From a virus: a DNA stretch of 46,053 nucleotides. The position numbers and the translations under genes were made by a program. The notes beneath the pieces are model-generated. The model saw nothing but the letters and a program-made list of their open reading frames with translations. It was not told where the DNA came from and made no database searches. Location of the stretch: the IMG/VR virus record IMGVR_UViG_3300005466_000014, positions 1 through 46,053 of that record. The stretch is one strand, 5' to 3'. Of this stretch, positions 3,212 through 27,517 are shown piece after piece. Position 1 is the first letter of the stretch; each line of letters starts with the position of its first letter.

Positions 3212-5092
3212 ATGCCATCCATCCCGCGGATCGCCGCACGCTACTTCCTCACGGGAAGGCCAATCCTCAACAACGGAGACAATGCCACCTTCTTGCACGG
3301 CGCCACGATCGATTACCGCGCTCGGCCGTATATCACCCTTAGTCGGCCACGCTGGCAGCGTCTCGTGCGTCGACATGCCGCTATCACTGCGCCAGCGGCG
3401 CTCCTGCTGGCCGCACCCCTCACTCCCGTAGAGACATGGTGGGCGGGCGCTTATGAGGCCACGTTGGCGGCTGGGGCGGTCACCTGGGGCACGCGCCGGC
3501 TGATGCTCCAGGTCCGTGATCGGCAACGCTACCGCGAGTGGATCGATCCGGCGGCCAAGCGGCTGGCGCGCATCCTCAAGACGAATTACTCGCGCAAGCT
3601 CGGCCGTTCCTGGATTCACCTCCCGCGGGACTGGGGAACGGATCGCGCCGACGGCGAGCGCCAAAGCGCCATGATCTATCTTCCCCCGGGAACGGTGCTG
3701 TCTGCCAACATCAAGCGCTCGATCACGGAGAATGTCGGTGCGGCGCTGGGAATCCCCGCACCGATCTCCGCGGACTGGGCAGAGAACGGTGCGCGAGTCG
3801 AGCTGTTCGCCGCGCCGCTTCCGCCGAAGGAACTGAAGTTCTCCGAGATGCGGAAGGCTATCGAGGAATGCCCGGACGATGAGATCGTGCTCGGCCGCCG
3901 CGCCGGTGGGCACATCGTTCGCGTCAGTCTGGCCGAGGATGCGCCGCACATCGCTCTCTCGGGCGCGGCCGGCTCGGGTAAGAGCGTGCTTGTGCGCTTC
4001 ATCCTCTGGCAGCGCATCCTACGCGGCGATGGCATCTTCATCTTCGACCCGAAGCGCTTCAGCCACATGCGGTGGGCCGCTGGATTTTCCAAGGATCGCG
4101 TTCGGTACGCGGTCACCGATGTGGAGCTGCATGAGGGCTGGCTCGCCGTAGCCGAGGAGATGCGACGCCGGATCGGGTTGCCGCTCGATGAACTGGAGAA
4201 GCAGCGCCGCGTATGGCTGTGCGCTGAGGAAATCAATGCTCAGATCAAGATCCTCACGCGCTACTGGAAGGTGCGGCGCCAGGAGATCATGCGCCCCGCC
4301 CGCGCGCTGCTGGCCGACTGCGAGAAGGAGTGCGCGGGCTCGAAGGTCGAAGGGCTGGCACTGGCCATGGATCGAGGCCTCGATCTGGCCGAGCTCGATC
4401 CGCCGGCCATCTCGCCCGCCGTGGTGGCCATGCAGGAGAGCGTCTTCATGGGGCGCGAGCTGAAAATGCATGTGCTCGCCGCGGCACAGCGGCTGTCCGC
4501 CGGCGTCTTCGGCGGCGGCGGCGGCGACGTGCGCGAGAGCTTCCAGGGAGGCCGCCTCATGGCCAAATGGGACCGCAAGCTCTGGAAGATGCTGGCCGAC
4601 GGCATCCCCTACGTCGCGTGGCCAGGCGGACCGCGAGGCAACTGGGGTTTGGCCAAAGGCGACGAGTTCTTCATCCTCCGGGCGCCATGGATCGATGAGC
4701 GCGAGATGGCCATGGCCAGCCAGTTGGCCAGTCCCGTTCGCGGGCCGGTGCTCGGCCGGCAGATGGCCACTGGCCAGATTGAGGGGATGGCCAGTGGCCA
4801 GTCGGATGGCCAGTTGGCCAATGGCCAGAGGGCTGGCCAACTGGCCATCACGTCGGCCGTCACGCTGGCCATGGCCATCGACGAGTTGCCCGGCCAGTCG
4901 GGGCCGATGGCCCTCTCGCTGCGCGGCCTGCGCGACGCCGCGGCCAACGCCGCCGGCTTCCCGGCGCCGCTGGCCAAGCCGGACGGCCAGGAGTACGGCC
5001 TGCGCGAGGCCCGACTGTATGACCTCGGCGAGCTGAAGGAGTGGCGCGCGGGAGTGCTCGCCGCAGCCGGAAAAAACTCGAGGTCTGCTTAG
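3212..5092 (+). CDS. FtsK/SpoIIIE/TraB-like DNA-translocating ATPase
   Basis: A 626-residue protein. Two hydrophobic segments (about residues 56-70 and 78-92) suggest membrane anchoring. A P-loop ATPase domain carries Walker A GAAGSGKS at 251-258, followed by IFIFDPK, typical of the FtsK/HerA family, and an acidic Walker B-like WLCAEEI near 333-339. TraB-type proteins pump double-stranded DNA through the membrane in actinobacterial conjugation. The C-terminal 130 residues are biased (repeats of GQ, MAS and QLA) because the DNA there is packed with TGGCCA sites. The stop lies inside a perfect 50-bp palindrome. A convergent DUF2637-like membrane gene with the same DNA repeats is the likely partner. 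Translocase assignment is good; a role in transfer, exclusion or episomal maintenance is inference. Confidence 0.85.
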   Translation: MPSIPRIAARYFLTGRPILNNGDNATFLHGATIDYRARPYITLSRPRWQRLVRRHAAITAPAALLLAAPLTPVETWWAGAYEATLAAGAVTWGTRRLMLQVRDRQRYREWIDPAAKRLARILKTNYSRKLGRSWIHLPRDWGTDRADGERQSAMIYLPPGTVLSANIKRSITENVGAALGIPAPISADWAENGARVELFAAPLPPKELKFSEMRKAIEECPDDEIVLGRRAGGHIVRVSLAEDAPHIALSGAAGSGKSVLVRFILWQRILRGDGIFIFDPKRFSHMRWAAGFSKDRVRYAVTDVELHEGWLAVAEEMRRRIGLPLDELEKQRRVWLCAEEINAQIKILTRYWKVRRQEIMRPARALLADCEKECAGSKVEGLALAMDRGLDLAELDPPAISPAVVAMQESVFMGRELKMHVLAAAQRLSAGVFGGGGGDVRESFQGGRLMAKWDRKLWKMLADGIPYVAWPGGPRGNWGLAKGDEFFILRAPWIDEREMAMASQLASPVRGPVLGRQMATGQIEGMASGQSDGQLANGQRAGQLAITSAVTLAMAIDELPGQSGPMALSLRGLRDAAANAAGFPAPLAKPDGQEYGLREARLYDLGELKEWRAGVLAAAGKNSRSA

Positions 5093-5120
5093 GGTACCCT
5101 AAGCAGACCTCGAGTTTTTT
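5071..5120. terminator. Perfect 50-bp palindrome, bidirectional terminator
   Basis: Bases 5071-5095 and 5096-5120 are exact reverse complements with no spacer, running from A6 through CTCGAG and GGTACC to T6. The stop codon of the FtsK/TraB-like gene (5090-5092) lies inside. It would terminate transcription on both strands between the convergent genes and could extrude as a cruciform. Confidence 0.85.
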
Positions 5121-5311
5121 GACCGTCAAGGGCTCACCGGTAAGCGTCCTGAGCTGGGCAGAGGCGGGGTGCGACCGTTAACGGTAGGCTTCCCCTGGGC
5201 ATCGGACGGGCCCTCATCCAGCGGGGCTCTCGCGCGGGTTTCCTCCTTTCCCACGCGAGAGCCCCGCTGCCGTCTTCAAGATCTTTTGCTGCAGTCGAAG
5301 TGCGCCGGCTC
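5121..5311. other. Non-coding gap with a second hairpin
   Basis: No convincing gene was seen. AGCGGGGCTCTCGCG (5220-5234) pairs with CGCGAGAGCCCCGCT (5254-5268) around a 19-base loop, a 15-bp stem that may back up termination or form a structured RNA. Confidence 0.6.
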
Positions 5312-6145
5312 TCAGGCGCCCGGACGTACGGTGGTCCGCCAGCGTCGGACGACGCGCTCGCTCCTGCCGAAGTGCGCGGCGAGCAGGGTGTCGACGTCGG
5401 CCTTGGCCACCACGTACGGGTCCCAGGCCTGCAGCAGCGCACGGGCCGCGGCCGGCACCACCGGCTGAGGGCCGCTGGCACCGGGCTCGCGCCGGGGCAG
5501 GGGCGGCGGCGCCACCTGGCCGCGCTGCTCGGGTTTGGTCATCGTGGCCAACCAACGCTCGGCTTCCTGGCCGACGCCGGTGGCCAGATCCTCCGGCAGG
5601 GCGTCGCTGGCCATCCGCTCCTGGTACTGGCCAAGGGGCTGGGTGGCCACCGGGTCTGGCCAACTGGCCATGTCCGGCTCGGCCAGCTCGGCCACGTAGT
5701 CAACCGCCGACTGGCCACTGGCCACCGATTGGCCACTGGCCACCGATTGGCCACTGGCCACCGATTGGCCAATTCGGCCGGCCAGCTCGACCAGGCAGAT
5801 GCTGGCCACCACGATCAGACCGTCCACTGAGAAGGGGATGAGGTAGGGCGCGGCGCCGGCCTCGCCGTACCTCTGCGCCACGCCCACCATGTGCCAGTAG
5901 CTCACCCACGCGGCAATCCCGGCGATGGTCACCGTGGCCAGTACGCGGGCGATGGCCAGCCAGCGTTTATGGATCGGCACGCGCGAGATGAGTTCCACGG
6001 TGAGCAGCAGCGCGAGCGGAGGCCACGCCGCGATGGCCTGACTGATCGGGTTGTCGAGGGCGTGCAGGACGTTGGCGACCACGGACGCGGCCACGCCGAG
6101 AAACAGCACGCCGCGTACAGCCCAGCGAATACGGTGAAGATTCAT
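5312..6145 (-). CDS. DUF2637/SpdB-like membrane protein with C-terminal HTH
   Basis: A 277-residue protein from ATG 6145, behind GAGGAGG; a further in-frame ATG at 6163 lies in the promoter and was rejected. Four hydrophobic segments occupy roughly residues 9-27, 38-56, 65-84 and 103-120 (LIPFSVDGLIVVASICLVEL), the pattern of DUF2637 proteins of actinobacterial plasmids and phages. The middle is low complexity with three SVASGQ repeats, encoded by tandem TGGCCA units. The last 40 residues (VDTLLAAHFGRSERVVRRWR) look like a helix-turn-helix. A membrane protein that could bind DNA, convergent with the translocase, is a natural loading or channel partner. The family call is by pattern. Confidence 0.75.
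   Translation of the reverse strand: MNLHRIRWAVRGVLFLGVAASVVANVLHALDNPISQAIAAWPPLALLLTVELISRVPIHKRWLAIARVLATVTIAGIAAWVSYWHMVGVAQRYGEAGAAPYLIPFSVDGLIVVASICLVELAGRIGQSVASGQSVASGQSVASGQSAVDYVAELAEPDMASWPDPVATQPLGQYQERMASDALPEDLATGVGQEAERWLATMTKPEQRGQVAPPPLPRREPGASGPQPVVPAAARALLQAWDPYVVAKADVDTLLAAHFGRSERVVRRWRTTVRPGA
5712..5771. repeat. 18-bp tandem repeat, about three copies
   Basis: Unit TGGCCACTGGCCACCGAT is repeated head to tail, each unit holding two TGGCCA sites and encoding SVASGQ on the minus strand. It is the densest part of the TGGCCA cluster. Confidence 0.85.
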
Positions 6146-6158
6146 GTCTACCTCCTCT

Positions 6159-6178
6159 CTCAACTATAGCAGAGGAGT
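6159..6178 (-). promoter_or_regulatory. Recurrent promoter motif, leftward, for the DUF2637-like gene
   Basis: The minus strand reads ACTCCTCTGCTATAGTTGAG exactly, with -10 TATAGT at 6168-6163 and an extended TGC. The ribosome site GAGGAGG and ATG 6145 follow. Confidence 0.75.
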
Positions 6179-6254: not shown

Positions 6255-6288
6255 TTGCGGAGGTATCCACTCCTCTGCTATAGTTAAG
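6255..6288 (+). promoter_or_regulatory. Recurrent promoter motif, rightward, for gene 6324
   Basis: -35 TTGCGG (6255-6260), 18-base spacer, extended -10 TGC-TATAGT (-10 at 6279-6284). The core ACTCCTCTGCTATAGT begins at 6269. Confidence 0.75.
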
Positions 6289-6323
6289 GTATAAGCAAGA
6301 AGGAAACAACCAAGGAGGCAGAA

Positions 6324-6556: not shown

Positions 6557-6590
6557 TTGCGGCGGATTTTACTCCTCTGCTATAGTTGAG
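6557..6590 (+). promoter_or_regulatory. Recurrent promoter motif, rightward, for gene 6607
   Basis: Same architecture as at 6255: TTGCGG (6557-6562), 18-base spacer, TATAGT (6581-6586). Bases 6571-6590 match the consensus ACTCCTCTGCTATAGTTGAG exactly. The upstream stretch (ATCTTGGTTG...GAGGTTGCGG) also resembles that of the previous copy, as if one unit was duplicated. Confidence 0.8.
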
Positions 6591-6606
6591 GTATAAGGAG
6601 GCAGAC

Positions 6607-7525: not shown

Positions 7526-7542
7526 GATTGCCTCCCTTTCAC

Positions 7543-7562
7543 CTCAACTATAGCAGAGGAGT
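7543..7562 (-). promoter_or_regulatory. Recurrent promoter motif, leftward, for gene 7525
   Basis: The minus strand reads ACTCCTCTGCTATAGTTGAG exactly, with -10 TATAGT at 7552-7547. It sits directly against the stop of the upstream hydrolase gene (7565). Confidence 0.8.
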
Positions 7563-9101: not shown

Positions 9102-9131
9102 TTCCCGTATTCAGTAGCCTGAACACGGGAA
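9102..9131 (-). other. Hairpin in the leader of gene 9079
   Basis: TTCCCGT-A-TTCAG (9102-9114) pairs with CTGAA-C-ACGGGAA (9119-9131) with one mismatch and a 4-base loop. It lies between the upstream terminator and the ribosome site of gene 9079 and may affect its expression. Confidence 0.45.
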
Positions 9132-9132
9132 A

Positions 9133-9166
9133 GGCCCGGATTCCTCCGTGCCGAGGAATCCGGGCC
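9133..9166 (-). terminator. Terminator below the SSB-like gene region
   Basis: GGCCCGGATTCCTC (9133-9146) pairs with GAGGAATCCGGGCC (9153-9166), a 14-bp stem with 6-base loop. On the minus strand TTTCCC follows. It would end the transcript carrying the SSB-like gene and flanking RNA elements. Confidence 0.8.
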
Positions 9167-9444
9167 CTATCTACTTCGGGAGACACGGTAGAAAGCGTGC
9201 CCGTAGTCTCGATCCAACTCCCACCCCGGCGATTGAGGAATCGGGTCGATTTTCTCCCTACCTCTCTTTTTCGGGAAACTGCTGAGAGGTCTAGCAGATT
9301 CGGCGAGAGTTCGGAGGCAGTCCCTCTCTCGTTCCCTGTAAAGATTGTGGATCGAGGCCGGCGAGAGGATTCACTACGAAGAAGACCAATCAGCCCGTCC
9401 TCATCCCCACGCCTGTTATGTGGCTGCCCTCGCCCCGAGGTAAA
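9167..9444 (-). other. Non-coding, hairpin-rich stretch downstream of the SSB-like gene
   Basis: No credible gene on either strand. On the minus strand a 6-bp outer stem (GGGAGA 9257-9252 with TCTCCC near 9184-9179) encloses several short hairpins, and an ACCTCTC/GAGAGGT stem lies at about 9292-9262. The arrangement recalls the tRNA-like elements at 10100-11270, but no canonical tRNA was found. Confidence 0.4.
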
Positions 9445-9999
9445 TCAGTCGAAAGCGGCGTCATCCGAGTCGACGCCCTTGACCCGGGCTTCGAGCATGG
9501 CCGAGATCTCCTTGGCCTTCTCGACATACTTCCGGGCAATTTCCTTGTCCTCGGGGGTGGGCTCGGAAATCGACCAGGAAGCCGACCATCCAGGCTGGCT
9601 GTTCTTCCGGCTGTTGATGCGGCCGAGGAACGGCTTGAACGTCTTCGGCTTGTCACCGTCCACGCGCTGCGCCAGCCTGGCCGTCATGCCGTTCGTGGAG
9701 AACTGGAAGTTGTCCAACAACTGCGGGCCCTCGGCCGCGACCGAGGGAACGAGCATCGGCTTCCGATCGCCGTCGACGATCTTCATGCCATCCCAGTTCG
9801 GGCCGTCATCGATCACGAGCGTGATCGTTTCATACCAGGGGTATGGCTTCCGGTTGTCACCGGCCTTGGGGACCCGCATTCCGTGCTTGCCGGTTGCCCA
9901 GACCAGAACCAAGCGGTCCTTGAGATCTTCCTTGCCGGGGAACTCTTCGGTCGCGTCGTCGAAGAATTCCAGGTCTTCCGTGGTGGTGCTCTCGGTCAT
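9445..9999 (-). CDS. Single-strand DNA-binding-like phage protein
   Basis: A 184-residue acidic protein from ATG 9999 (GAGAGGGAG ribosome site). The body (RLVLVWATGKHGMRVPKAGD, YETITLVIDDG, KPMLVPSVAAEG, LQLLDNFQFS-like core) resembles the SSB-like proteins that actinophages encode beside their Cas4/RecB exonuclease. The N-terminus carries an acidic EDLEFFDDATEEF, echoed in the Cas4-like protein (DDFFDDSP) and a zinc protein (DDFFDDTP) nearby. Expected role: coating single strands in replication or recombination. Family assignment is by pattern and context. Confidence 0.6.
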   Translation of the reverse strand: MTESTTTEDLEFFDDATEEFPGKEDLKDRLVLVWATGKHGMRVPKAGDNRKPYPWYETITLVIDDGPNWDGMKIVDGDRKPMLVPSVAAEGPQLLDNFQFSTNGMTARLAQRVDGDKPKTFKPFLGRINSRKNSQPGWSASWSISEPTPEDKEIARKYVEKAKEISAMLEARVKGVDSDDAAFD

Positions 10000-16675: not shown

Positions 16676-16939
16676 TTAGTCATAATCGATTCCAATTAAG
16701 TCGCAAATTTCGCGATCCCGCTTTTTGACTGCAGGGTGAGGGAGCGCCCAACTGCAGTCGCCGTCATTGACGGGATAATTCCAGTTGTCGCAGAAGTAAT
16801 TGCCGCTGTAGACGATGGGGAATTCACCGCACTCCGGACAGGAAATCTCGACATCACGGCCCTTGGCGAGGGCCAATCTCCCCTGACGGCCTTGGCGCTG
16901 TTGATCGGCGGGAACTTCCCACCAGCGACGGTGCCTCAT
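16676..16939 (-). CDS. Zinc-ribbon-like protein, 87 residues
   Basis: After a basic start, CPECGEFPIVYSGNYFCDNW and DGDCSWA give a four-Cys ribbon (residues about 34-62). The end is charged (KKRDREICDLIGIDYD). ATG 16939 overlaps the upstream stop as TGATG. May bind DNA or protein; family unknown. Confidence 0.6.
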   Translation of the reverse strand: MRHRRWWEVPADQQRQGRQGRLALAKGRDVEISCPECGEFPIVYSGNYFCDNWNYPVNDGDCSWALPHPAVKKRDREICDLIGIDYD

Positions 16940-17208
16940 CAGCGAGTCCGGGTGATTGTGACCGAGGCAGATCCTGCCGTAATCGCGATCGGGTTAAGGT
17001 TCACGTCCAGTGCATCCATCAGCGCGACCCCCGCGGCGTGGTGCTCCGGGAATGTGATCATCGTGATGATGGTCGGCGTGTCACTGGCCAGATCGTGCGA
17101 GAGCCGACTGTCCACGGTGGCGCCGACGCCCGGCATGATCCGGTCGACGTGCCGGCGCGCCTGGCTGGTGGCCTGCTTGATCGTCAGGGACTTCGCGGTG
17201 ATCGCCAT
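16939..17208 (-). CDS. Hypothetical protein, 89 residues, first gene of the leftward operon
   Basis: MAITAKSLTIKQATSQARRH, then TPTIITMITFPEHHAAGVAL: an alpha-beta small protein. ATG 17208 follows GAGGAGG below the promoter at 17228. Function unknown. It leads an operon of about 17 genes ending at the Cas4-like nuclease. Confidence 0.65.
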   Translation of the reverse strand: MAITAKSLTIKQATSQARRHVDRIMPGVGATVDSRLSHDLASDTPTIITMITFPEHHAAGVALMDALDVNLNPIAITAGSASVTITRTR

Positions 17209-17227: not shown

Positions 17228-17251
17228 ACTCCTCTACTATAGCAGACAAGT
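17228..17251 (-). promoter_or_regulatory. Recurrent promoter motif, leftward, for the long operon
   Basis: The minus strand reads ACTTGTCTGCTATAGTAGAG and then GAGT; -10 TATAGT at 17241-17236. It lies back to back with the rightward copy at 17273. Confidence 0.7.
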
Positions 17252-17272
17252 GCGGGGGGCGCGCAAGGGGTA

Positions 17273-17295
17273 CACGTCTGCTATAGTAGAGGAAT
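17273..17295 (+). promoter_or_regulatory. Recurrent promoter motif, rightward, for the lipoprotein/helicase operon
   Basis: CACGTCTGCTATAGTAGAGG, -10 TATAGT 17282-17287. An ATG sits 6 bases after the -10 box (17294) as in the leaderless cases, but a ribosome site and ATG 17309 follow, so both starts are possible. Confidence 0.7.
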
Positions 17296-17570: not shown

Positions 17571-18983
17571 ATGGCGACCCTTGGCGCCGCACTCGCGCGC
17601 TGCATCAACGACAAGACCGAAATCAAGGAGGGCATGGATAAATGCCCGAAGTGCGGTGACCCCGTGAAAATCGCACCGAGCTTGCCTGCTCGCCTGAAGC
17701 CGATCGAAGATGCCTCGCTTTCGGCAGTCGGCCAGGGAGCGATGGGCGCACAGCTATCCGATGAGCAAAATCGGGCACTGGCGGATATCAGGACGTGGTA
17801 TCGCTATAACTATGCCCATGACGAGAGGCGAGTCTTTCGCCTCTTCGGCGCGGCCGGCACCGGCAAGACGACGCTCACCAGATACCTCGCCGACGCGCTC
17901 GGTGTGAGCAATATTGTTTACGGAGCCTATACCGGCAAGGCTGCACATGTCCTGCGGTCGAAGGGTGTTCCGGCGACCACTATCCACAGTGCTGTGTATT
18001 GCCCTGTGGATAACAAGGAAGCTCGGGCCGAGCTTCAGCGGCTTACCGGCGAGTTTACTCGGCTATCGATCGAGCCTGCCCCGACCGGAATGGAAATCGC
18101 CTGCCTGAACACGCTACCCGGGGAAATCCAGCGACTCGAAGAGGCTATCAAGCACAGCGTTGAGTTCGAGCTGAATCCCATGAGCGCATGGGCCGATGCT
18201 GACCTCATTGTGCTTGATGAGGTCTCGATGGTGAATGAGCAGATCGGCCGGGACATCGAGAGCTTCGGCATGCCGATTCTCGTTCTCGGTGACCCCTACC
18301 AACTCCCGCCGATCGAGGGCGGAGGCTACTGGACCAAGCAGAATCCGGATGCATTTCTGCGCGAGGTGCACCGCTTCTACCTGGACTCGCCGGTCGGTGC
18401 GCTCGCTACCGATATTCGCACCATGAGCACGGGTGGGCTCGATCTGCTCAAGCGTGAGCGAGTCAGCCTGGATGCCGCCATGGCAGCCGATCAGATCCTC
18501 TGCTGGAAGAACTCCACGCGGCACAACCTCACGGGCAAAATCCGCGAGATCAAGGGGCGCCCGGCCGGCGTCCCGGTGCCCGGTGACCGTGTGATGTGTC
18601 TGGTCAACAACAAGGATCTGGGCATTTTTAACGGCCAGCAGTTCGAGGTGCTCAATACCTTCAACAACCGCGAGTCAATACTCTTGCGCGATGACGATGG
18701 GAACGAGATGCGTCACTACTTCGATCCGGACGGATTCCGTGGAGCGCTCGGCGAGCAGGCCGGCAAGGCTCGCTTCCGTCATCAGGGCCGTGTCGGACTC
18801 TTCACGTTCGCCGAGGTCATCACGGTGCACAAAGCGCAGGGCTCGGAATGGAATCACGTCTATGTGGTCGATCAGACCCATCAGATGTGGAAGTCCACGG
18901 ATGCCGAGAAGCGACGCTGGCTCTACACGGCCGTGACTCGCGCGAGCGAAAAGGTCACTCTGGCTAGTACCGAGGTCCAATGA
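17571..18983 (+). CDS. SF1B RecD/Dda-like helicase
   Basis: A 470-residue protein from ATG 17571, one base after the lipoprotein stop. A Cys pair CPKC at 25-28 suggests a small zinc ribbon. Helicase motifs: Walker A GAAGTGKT at 93-100, TGKAA, DEVSM at 216-220, LGDPYQLPPI, and near the end TVHKAQGSEW and YTAVTRA. These are the RecD/Dda-type 5'-3' helicase motifs. Likely works with the primase-helicase in replication or strand exchange. Confidence 0.9.
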   Translation: MATLGAALARCINDKTEIKEGMDKCPKCGDPVKIAPSLPARLKPIEDASLSAVGQGAMGAQLSDEQNRALADIRTWYRYNYAHDERRVFRLFGAAGTGKTTLTRYLADALGVSNIVYGAYTGKAAHVLRSKGVPATTIHSAVYCPVDNKEARAELQRLTGEFTRLSIEPAPTGMEIACLNTLPGEIQRLEEAIKHSVEFELNPMSAWADADLIVLDEVSMVNEQIGRDIESFGMPILVLGDPYQLPPIEGGGYWTKQNPDAFLREVHRFYLDSPVGALATDIRTMSTGGLDLLKRERVSLDAAMAADQILCWKNSTRHNLTGKIREIKGRPAGVPVPGDRVMCLVNNKDLGIFNGQQFEVLNTFNNRESILLRDDDGNEMRHYFDPDGFRGALGEQAGKARFRHQGRVGLFTFAEVITVHKAQGSEWNHVYVVDQTHQMWKSTDAEKRRWLYTAVTRASEKVTLASTEVQ

Positions 18984-26176: not shown

Positions 26177-27517
26177 GTGATCAAGAGATCACTCGCGGCC
26201 ATCAGCGCCGCACTCGTGCTCGCCGCGACCGCCCTGGCCGGCAACCCCGCCGCCGCCGCGCCCCCGGTCCACCCCACGCCCACCGGCGTCACGGTGCACG
26301 CGCTCAAGGGCAAGGGCAAGGAGGTTGGCGGGAAGATCCGTAAGGCCATTCCGCCAGTCGCGGCCAGCAAGAAAGGCCAGGTGTCGACCTTCGCCACTTC
26401 CTGTGCCAGCCCCTGCTACGGCTACGCCGAGCGCAATCAGACGTTCAGCCAGCCCACCACGGCGACCGGCGCCCTGGCCACCTTCTCCGTGCACAAGCCC
26501 GAGCGCCGCTCGTGGGACTATCACACCCTGGCCGAGATGGCCATCTGCGACACCACGCACGACAACTGCGTGGAAGCGGGCTGGACGGTCGACAACGCGC
26601 TGAACGGTGACGACAACCCGCATTTCTTCGTGTTCTGGTGGCTTTCCGGCGTCGGCCAGGGATACAACACGAGCGACTTCTTGGTCTCCGGTACGGCGCC
26701 CGTCACGCCCGGACAGGACATCAATTCCTACGTCGGCACGGCGACCCTCCCGATCCAGTGGGAGCATTTCGGCGCCGGCTGTGGCTGCACCCAGGGCTGG
26801 TGGCTGAGTAACGCCTCTACCTTCATCGGTGTCTACCCCGACACGCTGTGGACGGGCGCATTCACCTCTCCGGCCACGGTGCAGAACTTCGGCGAGGTCG
26901 CACTCTCCCAGACCCCCAGCCAGACCGACATGGGCAACGGCGATATCGCGACCTCGGCCGTCGGTACGCAGGGCGCGGTGATCTCGAACCTCAACATTCT
27001 CGGCACTGGGGCACCGGCCGCGGGATATACCGGTGGCACGATCACCTATCCGGACCGCTGGAATCGATACGACAGCAGCAGCGTGGCCTTCCGCTACGGC
27101 GGGCCCGGTGGCAACGTCACGGTCGCGAGCACCACGACCCCGAGCTCGCACGACTGCTCGGGTGTCGGCGTTGGCACGGATCCGTCCGGCTGGGGCGCCA
27201 TTTGCGCGTACGACGGTATCTCTGCCGGCGTGCCGATCACCAAGATCAAGGAACTGGACGGTGCAGCCGGCGCGTCCTGCCGCACCAACTGGGGCTCGAC
27301 TGCAGTCGGTGCTGGCACCGACATGATCGTCAATTCGAGTTACAAGAAGATCGATCTGTACAGCACGAACAACTGCACTGGCACCAAGCTCACGTTGGGG
27401 CTCGGCCGGACCACGCTGCCGGCGCCGTACGCCAACGCGACCAACCTTTCGCTCATCGTGACAAGCTCCTATGTCACGTGCGCGACCGGCTACCCGACCA
27501 CGGCGCCGACGTGTTAG
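26177..27517 (+). CDS. Secreted neprosin-like protein (cargo gene)
   Basis: A 446-residue protein from GTG 26177 behind AGGAGG. A Sec signal peptide (MIKRSLAAISAALVLAATAL, then AxA near 25-28) is followed by a basic propeptide-like stretch. Residues 120-225 match the neprosin pattern: VEAGWTVDN (Glu133), PHFFVFWWLSG, FGAGCGCTQGWWLS, FIGVYPDTLW. Neprosin-type enzymes are glutamate-class proline-specific peptidases. The C-terminal third has paired Cys and a further beta domain. A terminator follows. No known phage assembly role; probably host- or environment-directed. Confidence 0.7.
   Translation: MIKRSLAAISAALVLAATALAGNPAAAAPPVHPTPTGVTVHALKGKGKEVGGKIRKAIPPVAASKKGQVSTFATSCASPCYGYAERNQTFSQPTTATGALATFSVHKPERRSWDYHTLAEMAICDTTHDNCVEAGWTVDNALNGDDNPHFFVFWWLSGVGQGYNTSDFLVSGTAPVTPGQDINSYVGTATLPIQWEHFGAGCGCTQGWWLSNASTFIGVYPDTLWTGAFTSPATVQNFGEVALSQTPSQTDMGNGDIATSAVGTQGAVISNLNILGTGAPAAGYTGGTITYPDRWNRYDSSSVAFRYGGPGGNVTVASTTTPSSHDCSGVGVGTDPSGWGAICAYDGISAGVPITKIKELDGAAGASCRTNWGSTAVGAGTDMIVNSSYKKIDLYSTNNCTGTKLTLGLGRTTLPAPYANATNLSLIVTSSYVTCATGYPTTAPTC

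Follow-up and report, generated by a model that had tools for sequence, protein, structure and literature searches.

Clustered TGGCCA sites in the convergent translocase and DUF2637 genes of a tailed phage: a possible docking array

Known systems and the phage gene pair

The closest described systems are the TraB/clt systems of Streptomyces plasmids and AICEs (pSVH1, pIJ101, pJV1 and pWTY27), in which an FtsK-like motor ends in a winged helix-turn-helix (wHTH) domain and short, plasmid-specific repeated words lie in or beside the tra gene (PMC3583192, PMC3218068). The TraB of pSVH1, for example, reads repeated 8-bp motifs via its C-terminal wHTH, and the clt of pWTY27 overlaps the tra gene (PMC3583192). 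A DNA-binding spread-type protein of pIJ101, SpdA2, has a palindromic binding site (sps) within its own gene and influences stability but not transfer (PMC4170104). pSVH1 also has SpdB2, a DNA-binding membrane protein and interaction partner of TraB, its DNA binding being reported as non-specific (PMC4170104). The KOPS of FtsK and the SRS of SpoIIIE are directional, strand-polarised, replicon-wide motifs. On the linear plasmids pRL2 (Streptomyces) and pPR2 (Planobispora) a pRL2-11-type ATPase has a DUF2637 (domain of unknown function) neighbour. In PMC full text one paper names DUF2637 and none names it alongside FtsK, and among the papers listed for TGGCCA palindromic repeats none deals with arrays like those described here.

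The window, by which we mean the whole stretch of DNA analysed, is a 46,053-base virus record with tailed-phage genes (large terminase, portal, protease, major head protein, tail genes, primase and helicases). A preliminary description of this DNA proposed a convergent pair of genes, for a DNA-pumping ATPase and for a four-span membrane protein with a probable HTH, and our analysis agrees. The first gene (3212..5092, plus strand) encodes a TraB/FtsK-like DNA translocase of 626 aa. Its homology to the P-loop motors of the FtsK/HerA ATPases is indicated by DUF87 (23.7 bits, over the cut-off of 23.2; E=5.7e-5) and by homology to pRL2-11 of Streptomyces linear plasmids; the FtsK_SpoIIIE match (20 bits, E=5e-4) is under the cut-off of 24. 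In a tblastn search the translocase matched 45 plasmid records, 43 of them from Streptomyces, and a profile scan of genome contigs gave no confirmed match. A hydrophobic stretch visible in the sequence near residues 57-95 is a candidate N-terminal anchor. The C-terminus (coded by 4853..5083, plus strand; AlphaFold model residues 511-626, pLDDT 84-92) is predicted to be a MerR/excisionase-like winged-helix domain that would read DNA, its structural matches being mostly of the MerR, Xis/excisionase and terminase-small-subunit type with modest Z scores of up to 5.9 (VIA). The gene starts directly after TATAGTTGACCA and looks leaderless. Between the convergent genes there is an inverted repeat with A and T runs at its flanks (5073..5120) that looks, from its sequence, like a two-way terminator.

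The second gene (5312..6145, minus strand) encodes a DUF2637 membrane protein of 277 aa (PF10935, E=1.4e-11; 45 bits against a curated cut-off of 22.8). The AlphaFold model has four long helices (residues 3-138), a low-confidence linker and a C-terminal three-helix HTH, and the protein is thus predicted to span the membrane with four helices and to end in an HTH on a disordered linker. The linker is coded by 5453..5731 (minus strand; pLDDT mostly 39-57 over residues 131-190) and the HTH by 5327..5452 (minus strand; residues 232-273, pLDDT about 89-96); the HTH has the family consensus VSxRTARRWR and is kept in homologues. In these models both proteins of the pair end in predicted DNA-binding domains, as had been suggested. 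A Foldseek search with the full-length DUF2637 model found no meaningful match, and there was no match for the module among annotated phages (BLASTn) or for the DUF2637 protein among phages and plasmids.

As in the TraB/clt systems, repeated words lie in and beside the gene of an FtsK-like motor, here as 38 copies of TGGCCA, whose action in cis is putative. The carrier, in contrast, is a tailed phage, and whereas the clt loci described have a handful of repeats, each of 5-14 bp, within about 50-175 bp, here about 20-30 copies of a 6-bp palindrome are scattered over the coding sequence of each of two genes. The locus resembles SpdA2/sps in that a DNA-binding protein would have palindromic sites in its own coding sequence. 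However, sps is a conserved 12-bp palindrome in two to three copies and SpdA2 is small and zinc-finger-like, and neither word nor protein is related to the phage module, in which we found no 12-bp sps palindrome and no SpdA N-terminal motif, the word being 6 bp long and the protein of the DUF2637 type. SpdB2 is alike, by description, in being a membrane protein alongside TraB (PMC4170104). The comparison with plasmids that had been proposed shows the pair to be homologous to an FtsK-type protein and its DUF2637 neighbour on actinobacterial plasmids; in the pRL2 and pPR2 pairs, however, the genes have the same-strand order, there is no TGGCCA array and word arrays are weak or absent (the pRL2 DUF2637 gene has a weak excess of CGGACA, 11 against 4.5 expected). 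A directional, strand-polarised, replicon-wide motif of the KOPS or SRS kind was not found, the palindrome being concentrated in two genes. As TGGCCA is non-directional and its non-palindromic sister words in relatives are found in both orientations, the arrays give the motor no KOPS-like pointer. Our results suggest that plasmid-type machinery for DNA handling occurs in some phages of actinobacteria.

TGGCCA counts and selection on the word

TGGCCA occurs 38 times in 4362-5958 against 20 times in the remaining 44 kb of the window, so that both the position and the count of about 38 in 1.6 kb had been given correctly. The whole window has 58 copies against 13.2 ± 3.6 in dinucleotide shuffles, or about 0.5 expected per 1.6 kb. 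The earlier figure of less than one expected by composition ignored the proteins; given the amino acids and codons 5.9 and 6.6 copies are expected in the two genes. These values come from 2000 synonymous shuffles in which the protein and the codon set were held fixed and synonymous codons were permuted. Array A (4362..4976) has 20 sites in the 3' part of the ATPase gene (residues 384-587), against 5.9 ± 1.9 and a shuffle maximum of 12. Array B (5404..5958) has 18 sites in the DUF2637 gene, densest at residues 113-199 (the end of the last helix and the linker), against 6.6 ± 2.0 and a maximum of 13. The codon shuffling that had been proposed as a check thus leaves the count unexplained by the protein, and because amino acids and codons alone predict 5.9 and 6.6, the excess attributable to the DNA is about threefold per gene. 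Part of the word excess may already sit in the protein, since the amino-acid make-up of the linkers favours TGGCCA; A, G, Q and S abound in them, and there is one short tandem (VASGQS x3) at about 5712-5771.

Among the 64 palindromic 6-mers TGGCCA is the sole outlier in both genes (z 7.5 and 6.1, with the runner-up at 1.8), and the 28 other genes of the window are near expectation (18 copies against 13.1 in synonymous shuffles). The 38 sites have irregular spacings and no conserved flanks around the 6-bp palindrome, and they occupy all three codon frames (26 as NTG-GCC-ANN, 10 as NNT-GGC-CAN and 2 as TGG-CCA), in agreement with the several frames first described. Their presence on both coding strands, also put forward at that time, carries no information, because TGGCCA equals its own reverse complement. 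In an alignment of six TGGCCA-type ATPase genes with 70 site columns, 41 columns are private to one element and 2 are common to all six; that the positions turn over while the density stays argues for selection on the DNA. Judged from these sequences, the DNA word itself is under selection in both genes, and the original proposal to this effect is upheld by the synonymous shuffles, by the site turnover and by the status of TGGCCA as the sole palindromic outlier.

Words in viral relatives and other elements

Homologues of the ATPase with about 48-58% identity are encoded by 13 viral contigs, among them the near-duplicates L013 and L014, and a fourteenth viral homologue (L018) has 26% identity. 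A convergent DUF2637 gene accompanies the ATPase in the related viral contigs wherever the DNA is long enough. Each gene was scored against synonymous shuffles over all strand-merged 6-mers, and 11 elements were scored for both genes, L007 (DUF2637 frame seemingly broken) and L017 (frames uncertain) being left out of the concordance count. Both genes are rich in the same word in 11/11 scored elements, the top combined words being TGGCCA or its relatives TGGACA/TGTCCA/CTGTCC/CGGACA. The best word common to both genes is TGGCCA in seven (the window, L005, L008, L011, L012, L013 and L016), TGGACA/TGTCCA in L009 and L015, and CTGTCC in L006 (CGGACA next) and L010 (TGGCCA close behind); some relatives' words are TGTCCA or TGTCCG, kin of TGGCCA. 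The homologous phages scored, to which the preliminary description had looked for a comparison, thus carry a repeated word. The distant relative L018 has no such array.

Outside the phages, DUF2637 genes were scanned in a sample of actinomycete genomes, with ORFs partly called mechanically. Most of those sampled in Actinobacteria have no array, the chromosomal ones as a rule, and the array is therefore dispensable for the general role of the family. In a first survey 8/72 DUF2637 genes and 9/482 other ORFs reached z>5 (P=5e-4), on mechanical ORFs that included a minimum of two wrong frames (L390 and L405); rescored in the right frame, L405 stays high and L390 drops to z 4.6 (CGGACA, 11 against 4.6). 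In a subset from mobile elements, arrays of unrelated words lie in the same linker of the DUF2637 gene: GGTGCA (14 against 5.3 in L391, 21 against 7.5 in L410 and 20 against 7.8 in L403), a GAGAC word (CGAGAC, 16 against 4.8 in L301) and GATCGA (21 against 9.3 in L405). An FtsK-type neighbour is present in L391, L410 and L405, and in L301 a gene for an AAA ATPase follows after about 5 kb. TGGCCA itself recurs in the DUF2637 gene of L240, a contig binned as a Streptomyces genome (31 against 16.2), and of the Nocardiopsaceae contig G004:C29 (11 against 3.0). The latter also has two sets of sites in the non-coding DNA around a ParA gene (7 and 6 copies) and a cluster of 8 within the gene of a TrwC relaxase, and since TGGCCA stands between genes beside parA, a coding location is not necessary for such clusters. 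The non-coding DNA around this parA further contains 4-bp-periodic GCTNGCTNGC-like repeats (L267/L268, about 16780-17000 and 18117-18700) that look like a centromere. An array of about 20 GTGCGCAC palindromes in another contig (L406, G274:C8, 5394-6157), upstream of a replication-relaxation gene and pRL2-11-like genes, was dropped as a coding example because the stretch has no convincing ORF.

TGGCCA is also dense in elements unrelated to the phage. A Thermus-like phage has 13-15 copies in a gene whose product is a membrane protein bearing an IclR-type wHTH (L099 6163-6975 and L113 308-1120; 15 against 4.9 in a synonymous shuffle), and the viral contig L109 has 27 copies in 510 bases (9124-9633) over small membrane-protein frames adjoining an HTH gene. 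Both were found by searching for TGGCCA itself and are therefore uninformative on frequency. In 395 actinobacterial genomes TGGCCA triplets were not in excess over a reversed control pattern, and many of the matches listed are tandem repeats. In genome contigs most of the densest TGGCCA matches are heptamer tandem repeats and were rejected; multiples of a 7-base TGGCCAN unit in Planctomycetes and other genomes (L144, L172, L174 and others) look like simple repeats and not like word arrays.

Candidate readers of the arrays

We tentatively propose, with a little less than even confidence, that the two genes carry an intragenic array recognised by a DNA-binding protein that the element encodes, likeliest the HTH of the DUF2637 protein, and that the array docks the DNA next to the pump at the membrane. 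In the simplest reading the word is recognised by one of the DNA-binding domains that the module encodes. The most likely candidate reader is this C-terminal HTH, which the model separates from the four membrane helices by a long, flexible linker. The DUF2637 protein would bind sites both in its own gene and in the neighbouring translocase gene; with the reader anchored in the membrane, a cluster of 20 to 40 sites could keep the element's DNA there, near the TraB/FtsK-like pump. The array may then act as a docking or loading site for the movement or retention of double-stranded DNA, a coding-sequence counterpart of the Streptomyces plasmid clt; uses in transfer, spread, retention or loading are proposed by analogy with the Streptomyces systems. 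The pattern in the preliminary description was right, and its interpretation in terms of the module's own proteins is partly supported. Movement of DNA between cells, anchoring as an episome and a block to other DNA, which it named as roles, would be possible uses; our analysis turned up no sign of transfer or of an episome.

The DUF2637 HTH is favoured as reader for two reasons: the array accompanies the DUF2637 gene whether or not the ATPase gene also has sites, and similarity of the HTH partly predicts the word. When a profile of the phage HTH was compared with the DUF2637 loci of the sampled actinomycete genomes and the named elements, L240 ranked first and G004 third, both of them TGGCCA carriers; L383 ranked second, yet its DUF2637 gene has one TGGCCA only, and this similar helix counts against the link. 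A single 6-bp word would be weakly recognised by a small HTH, so that avidity must be assumed. In the phages both genes are packed with one word, and related plasmids have different words at this position, a pattern suggesting that the genes also serve as docking strips for holding the element's DNA at the cell membrane. It is possible, and on balance somewhat doubtful, that DUF2637-HTH proteins of mobile elements (phages, plasmids and ICEs) generally bind an array in their own linker-coding DNA, the gene being both anchor and docking strip and the word changing together with its reader.

We consider it rather unlikely that the arrays are instead clt-like loading sites read by the C-terminal winged helix of the translocase, as in pSVH1 TraB, with the DUF2637 protein as a Spd-like helper. 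The precedents of pSVH1 and of the pWTY27 clt overlapping tra (PMC3583192) and the predicted MerR-like wHTH speak for it, and TraB also fits as reader because the phage translocase gene, with 20 sites, is as heavily loaded as the DUF2637 gene. Against it, the array is in the DUF2637 gene and absent from the FtsK gene in L240 (where the adjoining pRL2-11-like gene has one site), L391, L410 and L301; G004 has TGGCCA although its FtsK has a different C-terminal domain, of the DUF7343/MarR type; and the L403 array is present with no translocase detected nearby. It is improbable that the arrays are intragenic operators, with the HTH protein or another repressor coating its own genes and silencing a potentially toxic membrane and pump module. 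Sites embedded in the module itself would fit autoregulation, and pIJ101 SpdA2 binds a palindrome within its own gene (PMC4170104), but a roadblock would need far fewer than the roughly 20 sites in the 3' half of each gene, the promoter-like sites of the module bear another repeat (CTATAGTTGAGG), and the G004 clusters are also intergenic and in a relaxase gene. A host factor, such as a nucleoid, segregation or modification protein, is a very unlikely reader: the recurrence of TGGCCA in unrelated elements, including the Thermus-like phage and L109, would agree with one, but the words vary between close relatives within one phage family and the 395 actinobacterial genomes, with their many tandem repeats among the matches listed, have no triplet excess. 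That the arrays are a by-product of protein repeats, codon usage or tandem duplication is scarcely tenable and already contradicted, because, for all the VASGQS tandem and the A/G/Q/S-rich linkers, shuffles with protein and codons fixed fall far short and the sites are irregularly spaced, occupy three frames and sit at non-homologous positions.

If the docking of DNA by the DUF2637 HTH is true, a gene would be selected at once for its protein and for dozens of protein-binding DNA sites, and this would recur with different words across elements. DUF2637 would gain a testable role beside FtsK-like pumps, and the pairs of word and reader would be a ready set for testing the co-evolution of HTH specificity and site arrays.

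The hosts of the virus family are probably soil actinobacteria, given L240, with its Streptomyces binning, and the actinobacterial range of DUF2637, which is present in 47/148 actinomycete genomes against 0/14 control genomes. Integrase, resolvase and ParA families had no match in the 12 viral records searched, fragments among them, a result that speaks neither for nor against an episome; for the ParA ATPase of ParABS partition this means no AAA_31 match in the window and 11 related viral records, some of them fragments. The CTATAGTTGAGG-type sequence occurs 14 times at no more than two mismatches, against 0.9 expected, with sites in the window at 6158-6175, 6272-6289, 6574-6591, 7542-7559 and 17231-17292. 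These sites are frequently overlapping inverted pairs 5' of genes, and the repeat is probably a phage promoter or operator. Just before the terminase gene, at 26177-27517, the window has a gene for a Neprosin-domain protein (PF03080, E=8.6e-19), which seems unusual in a phage.
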